From positions 510,419-574,418 of the forward strand of contig JAFDZP010000002.1 in NCBI GenBank assembly GCA_018266835.1: a stretch of 64,000 nt of DNA, given 5' to 3'. The stretch comes from Bacteroidota bacterium (GTDB lineage Bacteria; Bacteroidota; Ignavibacteria; Tepidaquicellales; Tepidaquicellaceae). A model generated the notes under the pieces. It saw only the letters and a program-made list of their open reading frames with translations. It had not been told where the DNA came from and did not search any database. A program made the translations under genes and the position numbers. Shown in pieces: positions 27,889 through 39,049 of the stretch. Position 1 is the first letter of the stretch. Every line of letters begins with the position of its first letter.

Positions 27889-28491
27889 TTATTCGTTTAG
27901 TCCTGCTCTTATATTCTGTATATCGAATTTAATTTATTAGTTTTATAAAGCCTTAAAAATAACCTTATTTCAAGTGAAATACAATGAAGAAAGGGGAAGT
28001 TTACCAATGAGGTTTGCTCGTTCGTAGTATTTTCACTCCATTTATTTGATACATCTTAATTGATTGTAAAAAAAAATATAAGGATTATTATAACCGGAGA
28101 ATTTAATCAATAAAATTTAATCAATAGAATTTATTAAAAAATTTTTCAAAAACTTGTCAAGTGGTTAAATAAAAAAATACCCTATATATACTTATAAGTA
28201 ATCTACACTATTAAAAATATTTTTTATTAGTTAACTTTGAGAAGTTTTTGAGAGCAATTTAATGACATAAAATTTTTCAAAACTCAATATTGATTTAATA
28301 GTAATTTGAGTCATTTCTTACGAGGGGGCGTAAGTTACGGCATATGTTTTTACAGCATTTATTGTTTACTAAAAAACCAATTGATTTTTTTAAGATTTGC
28401 ATCACTACCAAACGCTATAAATTGTTTTTAAAATGAAATTAAGGTATTTTTCAAAAAATATTCTCAAATCTTAATTTTTAATTATTTAACA
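27889..28491. other. Divergent intergenic region between GT2 and livJ (603 bases)
   Basis: No coding sequence recognised. It should hold promoters for both flanking genes. Short palindromes seen: ACTTGTCAAGT at 28152-28162, ACTTATAAGT at 28190-28199, and CTTACG/CGTAAG with an AGGGGG loop at 28317-28334, followed at once by TTACG, which can pair alternatively. The stretch is very AT-rich, and no unambiguous -35/-10 pair stands out. Confidence 0.5.
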
Positions 28492-34645: not shown

Positions 34646-35293
34646 TTATTCATTATCGGTAGCATCTTCAGCTTTTATAGCAGCTAAGTTAGAGTCCAGA
34701 AATCTCAGTATCTCGGGTTTGCCTTTTTTATTGAGTGAGGATGTTTCAATCATTACGGGAAGCTCGTCCCAGTATTTCCCAAGCTCTTCTTTGAAGGCTT
34801 CTATATTTTTATTTATCTTCGATTCACTTTCTTTATCCGTCTTGGTAAAAGTTAAAACAATCGGTATTCCGTTCTCTCCGCATTTGTTTATAAATTCAAT
34901 ATCTATTTTCTGAGGAGGAATTCGTGAGTCAATGAGTATAAATAAATACCGGAGGTTCTCTCGCTTCATTGCATATTCCCAGAGCGCTTTCTCCCATGCT
35001 TCACGCATTTTTATTGAGCGTGATGCATAGCCGTAACCGGGAAGATCAACAAGGTAATAGCTTTTTGAATTTTTTTCTTTGTTGTCTTTATTAATGAGGA
35101 AGTGATTTATAGTAACGGTCTTTCCCTGCTTAGCAGATGTCTTCGCAAGTCCGTTTTTATTTGTTATCATGTTAATAAGCGAGGACTTTCCTACATTCGA
35201 GCGGCCGATGAAGGCAAACTCAGGAATTGTAGGCGGCGGGCATTGCGCCATCCGCACTGCGCTTTTGATATACTCTGCTGACAGGATTTTCAT
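34646..35293 (-). CDS. engB: Ribosome-biogenesis GTPase EngB (YsxC/YihA)
   Basis: 215 residues. The GTPase boxes are complete: G1 GRSNVGKSSLIN (about residue 29), G2 region GLAKTSAKQGKTVTINHF, G3 DLPGYGYASR and G4 FTKTDKES. EngB is an essential circular GTPase for maturation of the large ribosomal subunit. Length and layout are normal, with a short C-terminal extension rich in acidic residues. Transcribed alone; a palindromic region lies downstream. Confidence 0.95.
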   Translation of the reverse strand: MKILSAEYIKSAVRMAQCPPPTIPEFAFIGRSNVGKSSLINMITNKNGLAKTSAKQGKTVTINHFLINKDNKEKNSKSYYLVDLPGYGYASRSIKMREAWEKALWEYAMKRENLRYLFILIDSRIPPQKIDIEFINKCGENGIPIVLTFTKTDKESESKINKNIEAFKEELGKYWDELPVMIETSSLNKKGKPEILRFLDSNLAAIKAEDATDNE

Positions 35294-35415: not shown

Positions 35416-35709
35416 GTGAGAATTATATCCAGAAAGATTTTAAGAGAATTTTGGGAGAAACACAAAGATTGCGAACAGCAGTTAAAGTCGTGGTATAAAG
35501 AAGCAGAAGAGTCTGATTGGAAATCACCAAAAAATATTAAAAAAGATTATCCTTCTGCAAGTGTATTAGCAGATAACAGAGTTGTCTTTAATATTAAAGG
35601 AAATACTTAAAGACTCATTGTAAAAATTAATTATGATTACGGAATTATTTGGATAAGATTTATTGGTACACATGCAGAATACGATAAAATAAACGCAGAA
35701 AAAATTTAA
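35416..35709 (+). pseudogene. higB: HigB-family mRNA interferase, interrupted by an in-frame stop
   Basis: Reading from GTG at 35416 gives a 64-residue product (RIISRKILREFWEKH, ending VVFNIKGNT) that stops at TAA, 35608-35610. The same frame continues without another stop to 35709 and encodes RLIVKINYDYGIIWIRF and GTHAEYDKINAEKI, exactly the missing C-terminal half of HigB toxins. The family normally has Tyr at the stop position (remembered pattern GNKYRLVVKINY), so one base change, TAC or TAT to TAA, explains it. The toxin is probably inactive. A sequencing error or stop readthrough is the alternative. The antitoxin gene starts 3 bases later and is intact. Confidence 0.85.
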
Positions 35710-35712
35710 ATT

Positions 35713-36069
35713 ATGGACATAAAACCTATTAAAACAAAAAAAGATTATCAGGCTGCTTTAACTAATTTAGAAAAAATATTTGACGCCCAAAAAGGCTCAA
35801 AAGAAGGCGATAATCTTGAAATTCTTTCCTTGTTAATTGAAAATTATGAGAAAGAAAAATTTAAAATTGATTCTCCTGATCCCATTGAAGCAATAAAATT
35901 CAGAATGGAACAAATGGGGTATAATCAAAATGATTTAACAGGAATGATCGGCTCTAAAAGCAGAGTCAGTGAAGTTTTAAATCGAAAGAGAAAATTAACA
36001 CTTTCTATGGTAAGAAAACTTCATAAAAAGCTGAATATTCCGTCCGAGATTTTGATAAGAGAATATTAA
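35713..36069 (+). CDS. higA: HigA-family antitoxin (HTH, Xre-like)
   Basis: 118 residues. The N-terminal part (1-60) is the dimerisation and toxin-binding region; residues 60-118 form a helix-turn-helix, MEQMGYNQNDLTGMIG then SKSRVSEVLNRKRKLTL and the C-terminal LHKKLNIPSEILI. It represses its own promoter and neutralises HigB by protein contact. It remains intact although the toxin frame upstream is broken, and the palindrome at 35378-35400 is its likely operator. It could persist as a plain regulator or as an anti-addiction remnant. Confidence 0.9.
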   Translation: MDIKPIKTKKDYQAALTNLEKIFDAQKGSKEGDNLEILSLLIENYEKEKFKIDSPDPIEAIKFRMEQMGYNQNDLTGMIGSKSRVSEVLNRKRKLTLSMVRKLHKKLNIPSEILIREY

Positions 36070-36072
36070 TTC

Positions 36073-37644
36073 CTACTTCACCAATACCATCTTCTTTGTT
36101 TCAGTAAATCCTGCTGTCTGAAGTTTATAAAAATATGTACCGCTTGCAAGATATAGCCCGTTGAAATTATATCTGTATGAACCGCGAACCATATTCTCAT
36201 TTATTAATGTATACATTTCTCTTCCTATCATATCAAATATTTTCAATGTCGCAAAAGTATTTTCAGGCAAAGTAAACTCTATTGTAGTATTCGGGTTAAA
36301 AGGATTCGGATAATTTTGCGCTAATGAGTATTTAACCGGCAATTGAGTTGATATCGGATCTAATCCTGTTGTCTGAGAATATTTTATTAACAAAATATCT
36401 GCTGCACTTCCGTTCCCTTCGCTGAAACCCGATACGTAAACACTGTTTGATGAATCAACTAAAATGGAATTTGTACAATTAGTGCCCTGCAAAGGATTGC
36501 GATAAATTTGTTTCCATTGCTGAACACCGTATGTATTATACTTTATTGTAACGCAGTCCATATTATCAGGAGCCGAACTCCATCCTGTTACATAAACATT
36601 TGAAGCAGCATCAACGGCAATTCCGTAAACTTCATCCCGGTCATTTGCTTCGCCGTTATAAATTGCGCACCATTGCTGCTCACCATTGTTGTTATACTTC
36701 ATCGTTGTAAAGTCATCCCCGCTTTCACCTGTGATATAGATGTTTCGTTCGGCGTCGATAATTAAACCCCTAACAGATTCCCTCCAGCTTGCTGCTCCAT
36801 GATAAATCGCAGCCCATTGCTGTTCTCCAGATAAATTATATTTTAAAGTTACAAAGTCATTCTCTGAAAGTCCTGAACTGTTACTTTCACCTGCTACATA
36901 AATATTTCCGATTGCATCTGACTTTACAAATACACCTCTGTAAACTGCTTTGGGTGCAAACTGATAACTTCTTTCCCAAAGTAAATTTCCGGTACTATTA
37001 TATTTCCATGTACCTATATCGGCGTTTTCATCTCTGGCTAATTCACCTGTTAAAATAATGTTTCCCGATTGGTCAAGCGTTATATCCAATGCATATGCTC
37101 TTTCTGTGCTGTTAATATTTTCCCAGACAAGAGTTCCTGATGAACTATATTTTCGCAGGGATTGGTGATAATTATTTTGACTGTCAACGCTTTCTCCGCA
37201 AATGTATAAATTCCCGTTTGAATCAGTTATTAACAAGCCGCCAAAATCCACCATCCATAACAGTTCACCTGAAGAGCTGTATTTAATAGTCAGCATTCCT
37301 GATGCAAGATTCGAATCACTTCTGCCTCCCAGAAAAATATTACCTGCATCGTCAATCGTCATTGCATAAGAATCATCAGTTAAGTGATTCGGTCCGTCGT
37401 AAGTTCTTGACCATAGCAGAGTGCCCGATGAATTATATTTCAGCAGGCAAAAATCTATATTTCCGTTTGGACCGTTGCTATAGCCTGAAACATAAATGTT
37501 TCCGAAGCGGTCAACTTTTGATTTGTTTGAGGCATCGAAAGAATTTCCGGTACCATTGAATTTTGTTATCCATTGCTGCGAACTTTGAGAGAATGAATAA
37601 ACTGAGGAAAGTACAAATAGAATTGTAACGAGCAGGGTTTTCAT
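36073..37644 (-). CDS. Secreted SBBP-repeat propeller protein with T9SS type A sorting domain
   Basis: 523 residues with a signal peptide (LLVTILFVLSSVYSFSQS). Residues 25-430 hold repeats of about 50 residues built on DxxGNIYVxGxS and TIKYNxxGxxQW, the SBBP beta-propeller pattern. Residues 440-523 are a T9SS sorting domain: AQNYPNPFNPNTTIEF, then GREMYTLIN and SGTYFYKLQTAGF. The product is predicted to be displayed or released at the outer surface; no enzymatic site is visible. Its 3' end is 3 bases from the higA stop (convergent), and its 5' side faces the repeat-rich intergenic region. Confidence 0.9.
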   Translation of the reverse strand: MKTLLVTILFVLSSVYSFSQSSQQWITKFNGTGNSFDASNKSKVDRFGNIYVSGYSNGPNGNIDFCLLKYNSSGTLLWSRTYDGPNHLTDDSYAMTIDDAGNIFLGGRSDSNLASGMLTIKYSSSGELLWMVDFGGLLITDSNGNLYICGESVDSQNNYHQSLRKYSSSGTLVWENINSTERAYALDITLDQSGNIILTGELARDENADIGTWKYNSTGNLLWERSYQFAPKAVYRGVFVKSDAIGNIYVAGESNSSGLSENDFVTLKYNLSGEQQWAAIYHGAASWRESVRGLIIDAERNIYITGESGDDFTTMKYNNNGEQQWCAIYNGEANDRDEVYGIAVDAASNVYVTGWSSAPDNMDCVTIKYNTYGVQQWKQIYRNPLQGTNCTNSILVDSSNSVYVSGFSEGNGSAADILLIKYSQTTGLDPISTQLPVKYSLAQNYPNPFNPNTTIEFTLPENTFATLKIFDMIGREMYTLINENMVRGSYRYNFNGLYLASGTYFYKLQTAGFTETKKMVLVK

Positions 37645-37735: not shown

Positions 37736-37849
37736 TGTCAGATAGGAATTTTTGTCATAATTTGTATCTCTTAAATTTTTTCACCCTATACCTGCTAATA
37801 GGGAGAAGCAATTTGAACTGCTAAAAAATATTTTATATATTGCAGAGTG

Positions 37850-37891
37850 CAATTAGCAATTAACAATTAACAATTAGCAGTTAGCAATTAG
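37850..37891. repeat. Six tandem heptads CAATTAR
   Basis: Six consecutive 7-base units (CAATTAG, CAATTAA, CAATTAA, CAATTAG, CAGTTAG, CAATTAG). Confidence 0.85.
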
Positions 37892-37908: not shown

Positions 37909-37968
37909 ATCAGTGACATCATAAAAATCATATTTATCGGTGTTAATAAAACCCGACTTTTTTCCGAC
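37909..37968. repeat. 60-base direct repeat, copy 1
   Basis: Begins ATCAGTGACATCATAAA and ends in the first bipartite CCGAC box. It matches 38197-38256 at 56 of 60 positions. Confidence 0.9.
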
Positions 37969-38359
37969 CAAAACACAAATGATAAAAATCGGAGATTGTT
38001 TTTACAATATCGGAGTTTGGAAAACCCGACAATAATCCGTCAAAATTTGAAATTTAAAATCTGAAATTTGAAATTATGAAAATCCGACTTTTTCCCGACT
38101 TTTTCACAAATAAAAAAATCGAGTATTGTTTTTTCAACCCAGGTGAATTAAAATCCGACAATAACCCGACATTTTTTGAAATCTGATTGTGAGAATATCA
38201 GTGACATCATAAAGATCATATTTATCCGTGTTAAGAAAATCCGACTTTTTTCCGACTTTATTCAAATAGTGAATTGGTGAAATGGTCAAATAGTGATTTT
38301 GGTGTTATTTCGAGCTTTTTCTTGTTTTGTGGCAGAATAAAACCCGACCAAAACCCGAC
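37948..38359 (+). repeat. Array of six 21-base bipartite CCGAC boxes
   Basis: Copies at 37948-37968, 38021-38041, 38079-38099, 38150-38170, 38236-38256 and 38339-38359. All are exactly 21 bases and fit AAAAYCCGAC-N5-YCCGAC; only the second copy departs, with CCGTC in its right half. The half-sites are 11 bases apart, one helical turn, and all face the same way, while the distances between copies vary (58-103 bases). The array lies upstream of the ECF-like sigma gene. Confidence 0.9.
38197..38256. repeat. 60-base direct repeat, copy 2
   Basis: Partner of 37909-37968 with four substitutions. It ends in the fifth CCGAC box. Confidence 0.9.
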
Positions 38360-38443
38360 TAATTCATAATTCATAATTTTGAATTCATAATTGAAGACCC
38401 AACTTTAAAGTATTTTTCCCGTTCATACGTCTATAATAGTATA

Positions 38444-39049
38444 ATGGAAAAGGAAACTCCCGCTGAAATGGAACAGGCATTAATTCAAAGCGATGTTACT
38501 CACATTCAGAACGCTGAAATCGGTGAAGCCGTAATAAGCGAGCGGGCTAAACTGTTATCATTTATAAAAAGTAAGGTCCCCGCAGGAGAAGAGGCAGAGG
38601 ACATTCTGCAGGATGTTTTCTACGAGCTGATTGAAAGCAGGCGGCTGATGAAGCCGATTGAAAAACTCGCTTCATGGCTCTATACCGTTGCGCGCAATAA
38701 AATAAATGACTTATACCGCAAAAAGAAAACGGTATCATTGGAAGATGAATTTGAAATAAGCGGAAGCGATGAAGTCCTGATGCTTGCAGATGTACTGCCT
38801 GCATTTGAAAATTCAATCGAAGATAAGTTGCTTCAAAGCGCATTGATAGACCTGATGGAAGAAGCGCTTGATGAGCTGCCGGAAAATCAGAGCAGAGCTT
38901 TTATAATGCACGAGCTTGAAGGAAAGAGCCTGAATGAAATTGCGGAGGAAATGGATGTTCCGCTTAAGACTGTGATTTCCAGAAAGCGGTATGCAGTGCT
39001 TCATCTTCGTGAAAAAATGCAGGAGCTTTACAAGGAGCTATTCCATTAA
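38444..39049 (+). CDS. RNA polymerase sigma factor, ECF-like
   Basis: 201 residues. Region 2 (about 35-95) contains the core-binding and -10 recognition helices: GEEAEDILQDVFYELIES and ASWLYTVARNKINDLYRKKK. Region 4 (about 140-195) has LPENQSRAFIMHELEGKSLNEIAEEM and the recognition helix KTVISRKRYAVLHLREKM. No sigma-1 or sigma-3 domain. The small membrane protein gene 36 bases downstream may encode its regulator. The 800-base upstream region with CCGAC boxes may carry its control elements. Confidence 0.9.
   Translation: MEKETPAEMEQALIQSDVTHIQNAEIGEAVISERAKLLSFIKSKVPAGEEAEDILQDVFYELIESRRLMKPIEKLASWLYTVARNKINDLYRKKKTVSLEDEFEISGSDEVLMLADVLPAFENSIEDKLLQSALIDLMEEALDELPENQSRAFIMHELEGKSLNEIAEEMDVPLKTVISRKRYAVLHLREKMQELYKELFH

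Follow-up and report, generated by a model that had tools for sequence, protein, structure and literature searches.

Intergenic arrays of a 21-bp bipartite box and recurrent modules in a Bacteroidota genome and its sister species

The six-box array and the adjoining genes

The window, meaning the whole 64,000-nucleotide stretch of DNA analysed, belongs to a genome of 4.0 Mb (G000), and the sister species (G001) was its sole congener in the set searched. Between an EngB-type GTPase gene (34646-35293; TIGR03598) and an ECF-type sigma factor gene (38444-39049, + strand) the window carries a short ORF, a HTH_3 protein and a Por-secretion beta-propeller protein (35416-37644), together with an array of short boxes. 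The short ORF and the HTH_3 protein presumably resemble a HigBA pair, of which only HTH_3 was found. The stretch from the propeller gene to the ECF gene showed no terminator-like site. The downstream gene had been called ECF-like in the initial annotation, and domain matches agree: it contains Sigma70_r2 and Sigma70_r4 domains and scores above the cut-off of TIGR02937 (sigma70-ECF).

Pattern matching confirmed six boxes of 21 bp on the + strand that match AAAAYCCGAC-N5-YCCGAC, namely AAAACCCGACTTTTTTCCGAC (box 1, 37948-37968), AAAACCCGACAATAATCCGTC (box 2, 38021-38041), AAAATCCGACTTTTTCCCGAC (box 3, 38079-38099), AAAATCCGACAATAACCCGAC (box 4, 38150-38170), AAAATCCGACTTTTTTCCGAC (box 5, 38236-38256) and AAAACCCGACCAAAACCCGAC (box 6, the final box, 38339-38359). 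The half-sites are 11 bp apart and the start-to-start distances between boxes vary (73, 58, 71, 86 and 103 bp), both as previously described. Five of the six boxes are exact. Box 2 is a mixed CCGAC/CCGTC box with CCGTC as its second half; it does depart from the pattern, but not by simple decay, CCGTC being a second box type found genome-wide. Chance had been dismissed as the source of the boxes, and rightly: six matches to the 17-base core YCCGAC-N5-YCCGAC were found in the window at up to one mismatch, against a mean of 0.10 in 100 dinucleotide shuffles, none of which reached six.

The sequence between the boxes is composed of modules, all described here on the + strand and recognised by repeat comparison. 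A microsatellite-like module, CAATTAGCAATTAACAATTA, occupies 37850-37890 (D8). The module ATCAGTGACATCATAAAAATCATATTTATCGGTGTTA occurs at 37909-37947 and again at 38197-38235 (D3, 93%), in each case directly followed by a box. The 60-base duplication reported earlier is therefore real (37909-37968 and 38197-38256, 93% identity), and it stops exactly where box 5 ends. An inverted-repeat module with an ATTG-N6-CAAT core is present at 37984-38009 and in a second copy at 38114-38137, which is 83% identical to 37984-38007 (D6); the longer units said to be common to pairs of boxes are likewise real. The remaining modules are AATTTGAAATTTAAAATCTGAAATTTG (38044-38077, D11) and TCAAATAGTGAATTGGTGAAATGG (38262-38299, D9).

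A palindrome and a promoter-like sequence ahead of the array (37784-37842) had been missed. The leader palindrome, CCCTATACCTGCTAATAGGG, lies at 37784-37803 (+) and was recognised from its sequence and from genome-wide leader counts. It is followed at 37812-37842 (+) by a promoter-like TTTG-N18-TATATATTG that reads into the array and represents the conserved TTT..TATaTT 3' of the palindrome; the promoter-like match in the window is TTGAAC-17-TATATT (9/12).

Box classes, modules and breakpoints

The analysis covered 72 arrays in G000 (71 fetched clusters and the window array) and 21 in the sister species, all selected by box patterns; array totals are therefore lower bounds (at least 72 in G000). 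At up to two mismatches, at least 133 boxes were detected in the 4.0 Mb of G000, against 5 for a reversed-pattern control. The boxes are clustered and almost all intergenic, with a positional preference, and only 17 of 287 fall in any ORF of at least 90 amino acids.

Within the G000 arrays the geometry of the box is tightly kept. A second half-site (at least 5/6) occurs at exactly +11 from 61 of the 70 first-half anchors (AAAAYCCGAC). Half-sites are far better kept than the spacer: information per position is about 0.9-2.0 bits in the second half, 0.45-0.64 bits in the N5 spacer (A/T only) and mostly less than 0.2 bits in the flanks past the A/T run. Every exact box (217/217 in the 72 arrays) lies on the majority strand of its own array.

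Half-sites fall into discrete classes, CCGAC, CCGTC and TGNNAC, which almost never mix. The second box class, AATCCGTCAAAAAYCCGTC, and the third, AATGYGACAATAATGYGAC (80 places), which grades into AATGTTACAATAATGTTAC (at least 41 places), have the same geometry as the first class and occur in the same clusters. Mixed CC/TG boxes account for 2 of the 217 exact boxes versus 108 expected, and mixed CCGAC/CCGTC boxes for 2 of 99 versus 33 expected; a direct genome search for mixed boxes returned none with CC then TG and two with TG then CC. Each class has spacers of its own, AATAA with TG, AAAAA with CCGTC, and TTTTT, TATTT or CAAAA with CCGAC. Between the halves of the TG class, and at the first base of CCGAC half-sites, there is no matching beyond chance, so the halves match by lineage class, which could reflect the copying of whole boxes. 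Class matching agrees with separate recognition specificities as well as with box lineages that are copied as a whole.

Boxes alternate with modules of 40-90 bp from recurrent repeat families. A total of 217 modules were delimited between boxes (length quartiles 42, 52 and 90 bp), and 130 of them contain at least one recurrent, named motif, most commonly the ATTG-N6-CAAT inverted repeat (61), followed by the CCCCCTCC/GGAGGGGG hairpin (25). Modules mostly share the strand of the boxes, with same-to-opposite ratios in the G000 arrays of 14:0, 12:0, 19:1 and 9:0 for example families, among them ATCAGTGACATCATAAAAATCATATTTATCGGTGTTA (14 same, 0 opposite) and AATTTGAAATTTAAAATCTGAAATTTG (19 same, 1 opposite). 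The microsatellite-like CAATTAGCAATTAACAATTA family is on the box strand in 12 G000 arrays and on the other in 2; the C5/G5 hairpin is the exception to the rule (16:7). The 64-kb window contains no member of the hairpin, CCTGACAGG or CGTAATT families; AATTAACAATTAGC and AATCTGAAATCTG occur there only inside or adjoining the array, and ATTG-N6-CAAT, TCATAA..ATCATA and TTCGCC..GGCGAA are found elsewhere in it too.

Comparison between arrays yielded 315 alignments (at least 45 bp and at least 80% identity). One whole box was contained in 218 of them, two or more boxes in 15 and no box in 82. On the right, 82 alignments stop where a box ends in both copies, versus 14 expected from random shifts, and on the left, 118 begin at a box start, versus 15.8 expected; both edges fall at box borders in 11 of the 315. 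Arrays therefore seldom have module order in common; what they share is single units. Since every array has boxes, matches run through a box where the neighbouring sequence differs, and this could account for part of the edge signal.

These observations bear on a neutral origin, whereby a directional ancestral array was copied and then scrambled by slippage and ordinary homologous recombination, with the box a mere joint that no protein recognises. Such an origin calls for no assumed function; each box class behaves like a separate lineage that keeps spacers of its own, and tandem duplications of a box with its module are common in the arrays. However, TTTTT and CAAAA spacers both stand between unchanged CCGAC half-sites, half-site information is two to four times that of the spacer, and the spacing stays at 11. 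Furthermore, orthologous end boxes stay put in the two species even where both half-sites have changed, as in TCCGTCAAAAACCCGTC versus TGCGACAAAAATGCGAC (arrays L119 and L174), after which the sequence is alignable. We consider neutral spread unlikely.

Leader, genomic context and sister species

The palindrome found ahead of the window array has the rough form CCCTATTAnnnnTAATAGGG, also CCTATTAGTACTAATAGG (CCTATTA..TAATAGG). Of the 72 G000 arrays, 58 have it in the 520 bp on the left side of the first box (control windows 4/279), and none has it in the 450 bp on the right side of the last box. At a fixed distance after the palindrome follows TTT..-N-TATaTT. The Bacteroidota promoter consensus is TTTG/TAnnTTTG, and the TTT..-N-TATaTT of the leader resembles a Bacteroidota promoter; judged by its sequence, the leader is a putative promoter reading into the array. 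Among the matches listed, the palindrome occurs at no fewer than 73 sites in G000 and 28 in the sister species, and at 0 to 3 in 27 other relatives (their controls 0 to 6). Twenty loci fetched by the palindrome alone were kept out of the array counts. In 14 of the 72 G000 arrays no leader palindrome was found at up to two mismatches, and in the sister species it accompanies only 8 of 21 arrays; both counts weigh against the explanation preferred below. At two loci of the sister species (L230 and L231) the palindrome is followed by a T-run, terminator-like, with no array. A different leader, ATGACTTTATA..CCATATTTTATTATGG, precedes nine of its arrays (L170, L172, L173, L175, L177, L180, L181, L184 and L185), and these loci have in common a conserved stretch that reaches up to about 290 bp.

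A leader of this kind raises the possibility that the arrays are non-coding RNA genes under one regulator, with the boxes serving as single-stranded sites for an RNA-binding protein; the boxes would then all lie on the transcribed strand because they act in the transcript. The promoter-like sequence pointing into the array (left 58/72, right 0/72), the location of all exact boxes and most modules on the strand of the leader, and the frequent occurrence of such a leader ahead of a second element, which has a conserved hairpin, are in keeping with this account. On the other hand, the window array folds no better than its shuffles (z 0.41), no pairing or covariation was found in the inverted-repeat module beyond its core, and the exact 11-base spacing is easier to explain with double-stranded DNA, while strand uniformity is also expected from orientation-preserving exchange between arrays. 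A search of Rfam gave no match in the window. The RNA account is, in our judgement, possible but doubtful. With respect to the initial annotation, its view of the box as a constrained bipartite site stands, whereas the folding and pairing results lend no support to its alternative of a structured repeat element in the RNA sense, and its tie of the boxes to the ECF sigma gene does not hold, as the comparison with the sister species indicates.

In the sister species the ECF sigma gene has an orthologue with 72% identity, and the block directly before the start codon is kept there; in the window this block lies at 38397-38443 (+), outside the array. The orthologue adjoins the gene for the EngB-type GTPase, and at that locus the window array and the genes of 35416-37644 have no match; neither a box nor the leader palindrome is present in the 1000 bp upstream of it. 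The absence of the array from this gene indicates that the array is not a conserved part of its regulation.

Context counts across the 72 arrays, made with longest-ORF calls rather than annotated genes, gave 25 arrays with both flanking genes reading with the boxes, 24 with divergent genes, 20 with both genes reading against the boxes and 3 with convergent genes. Both flanking genes are opposite to the boxes in 20 of 72, and the arrays therefore keep no fixed orientation relative to the downstream gene. An avoidance of convergent gene pairs (3/72) is suggestive only. In three G000 arrays (L076, L083 and L124) the same-orientation boxes enclose a NUDIX-like, a LexA and a small-protein gene, respectively, which read with them; these names were read from the sequence.

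The idea that the boxes are operators, either of the ECF sigma gene, as first proposed, or of whichever gene lies downstream of each array, can be weighed against these results. The last box lies 84 bp before the start codon of the sigma gene, and the scarcity of convergent neighbours would suit such a role. Nevertheless, the orthologous ECF gene has no boxes although its start-adjacent block is conserved, both neighbours read the other way in more than a quarter of the arrays (20/72), and the downstream genes are unrelated, for instance LexA in L083 and NUDIX-like in L076, as named from their sequences. Regulation of the ECF gene by the boxes was accordingly rejected, and operators in general are very improbable. 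Such boxes should not be annotated as operators of the next gene.

The 21 arrays of the sister species consist mostly of TGTTAC boxes. Since TGTTAC boxes give loose matches on either strand, the automatic orientation of four of these arrays (L169, L176, L178 and L182) was reversed on visual inspection. The sequence TTATTTTGCAG is found at the array edge in 11 arrays of the sister species and 20 of G000. Eleven of the 21 arrays adjoin genes whose orthologues carry an array in G000, with different box sequences; by our reading, 9 of these 11 shared positions have matches on both sides. In several of nine pairs compared by eye, the flanking sequence can be aligned as far as the palindrome, or again after the last box, and the content differs.

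The arrays appear confined to these two species. In 98 other genomes of the class there were at most 3 box matches each, versus 91 in G000, and among the matches listed AATGTTACAATAATGTTAC occurred only in G000 and the sister species of 59 genomes. Species-level genome contigs gave 26 stretches with one match each, four of them from the sister species, in a search from which the window's own genome records were possibly excluded. Plasmids gave no box match, and on viral contigs the two box patterns gave 0 and 8 single matches. Spread to other lineages was rejected on the basis of these few or no matches. Mobility of the RAYT/REP type was also rejected, the Y1 transposase family PF01797 having 0 matches in G000 and 4 in the sister species. 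By eye, no recombinase was seen among the genes between distant exact boxes, and no protein that binds the box came to light; these negative results, with that for the Y1 family, count against the explanation preferred below.

A proposed directional mosaic element and its comparison with known systems

Overall, our analysis favours, with a probability of about 0.5, a genus-restricted, directional mosaic repeat element that is led by a promoter, built of units joined at the boxes, and whose box is recognised by a protein. The window boxes would be one of at least 72 copies of this non-coding element. In most copies a palindromic site resembling an operator would come first, together with an inward-pointing promoter-like sequence, followed by one-way units, each a 21-bp bipartite box with a 40-90 bp module from a common pool. 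The arrays would grow and reshuffle by joining or exchanging units at the boxes, presumably by active joining rather than ordinary recombination between 21-bp repeats. A protein that recognises two half-sites on one face of the helix, one turn apart, would keep the geometry exact; candidates are the enzyme responsible for joining units, an accessory factor in that step, or a factor that binds the DNA of the array. Firing of the promoter and occupancy of the box by a protein are likewise inferred; the comparisons show directly the anatomy, the uniform strand, the breakpoints at box edges, the matched half-site classes and the positions common to the two species.

A more far-reaching version has one regulator and one promoter type driving dozens of dispersed arrays. 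Modules would be added, deleted and swapped by a recombinase or DNA-binding protein dedicated to reading the direct-repeat box, with a site dialect that varies by species; we regard this version as rather unlikely. That such non-coding cassette arrays constitute a previously undescribed class belongs to the same reading and is put forward just as tentatively; searches of the open-licence literature turned up no description of arrays of this kind from the lineage.

An integron cassette array has a promoter at one end, recombination-type sites in one orientation and variable units, with an attC-type site and IntI. The arrays described here share with it the single orientation of the boxes (217/217), the leader at one end (left 58/72, right 0/72) and the variable units, and the three genes embedded in arrays (for LexA, a NUDIX-like protein and, in L124, a small protein) have the same direction as the boxes. 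Unlike integron cassettes, the units are mostly non-coding and shorter than 100 bp, the box is not inverted, and there are dozens of loci rather than one. CRISPR arrays have a leader with a promoter, directional repeats and a near-constant spacer length. The likeness extends to the leader (promoter-like here), the directional repeats and the variable sequence between them; in contrast, the box distances vary (58-103 bp in the window; module quartiles 42, 52 and 90 bp) and the modules are recurrent repeats.

The nearest likeness in working is to the neisserial intergenic mosaic elements (NIMEs), which are made of dRS3 and RS repeats (PMC3898611). There, dRS3 is a 20-bp repeat, ATTCCC-N8-GGGAAT, with inverted 6-bp ends; it serves as an integration site for filamentous phage, and with interchangeable repeats of 30-160 bp it makes up intergenic arrays of 200-2700 bp, in hundreds of copies. 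In common with that description are bipartite repeats of about 20 bp with conserved 6-bp ends that alternate between genes with longer interchangeable repeats. The half-sites here are, however, direct repeats (YCCGAC-N5-YCCGAC) one helical turn apart where dRS3 is inverted, the boxes of an array lie on a single strand, a palindrome and promoter-like leader precede most arrays, and the box has no phage integrase associated with it. The arrays work like NIMEs, but lack the defining inverted-repeat site, and hence they are not filed as NIMEs. The TAACTGA heptamers (PMC4679880) are direct repeats of Beggiatoaceae, Cyanobacteria and Bacteroidetes, arranged head-to-tail and usually beside start codons. 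They resemble the boxes as short direct repeats at many intergenic places of one genome that are sparse in its relatives; they differ in having no leader, modules or half-site classes, whereas a box here normally consists of two 6-bp half-sites spaced 11 bp apart.

Only a few bacteria are known to have intergenic mosaic repeats. In this genus, two species carry arrays of one kind at shared positions although the box sequences differ, the direction is set by a promoter-like leader, and the box classes hardly mix. This makes it feasible to look directly for the joining site, for the protein that partners it and for the regulator of the leader.

The second element that often stands behind the same kind of leader as the box arrays is also genus-restricted. 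An E-value search of Rfam with seven of its loci gave no match above the gathering score. Its window copy, at 28315-28334 (+), has a hairpin, ACTTACGAGGGGGCGTAAGT, between direct repeats near TGTTTTWACARTAATTTA, and a leader-like palindrome lies at 28181. It is represented by 38 copies in G000 and 56 in the sister species, of which 60 were printed, and by none in 97 other genomes searched.
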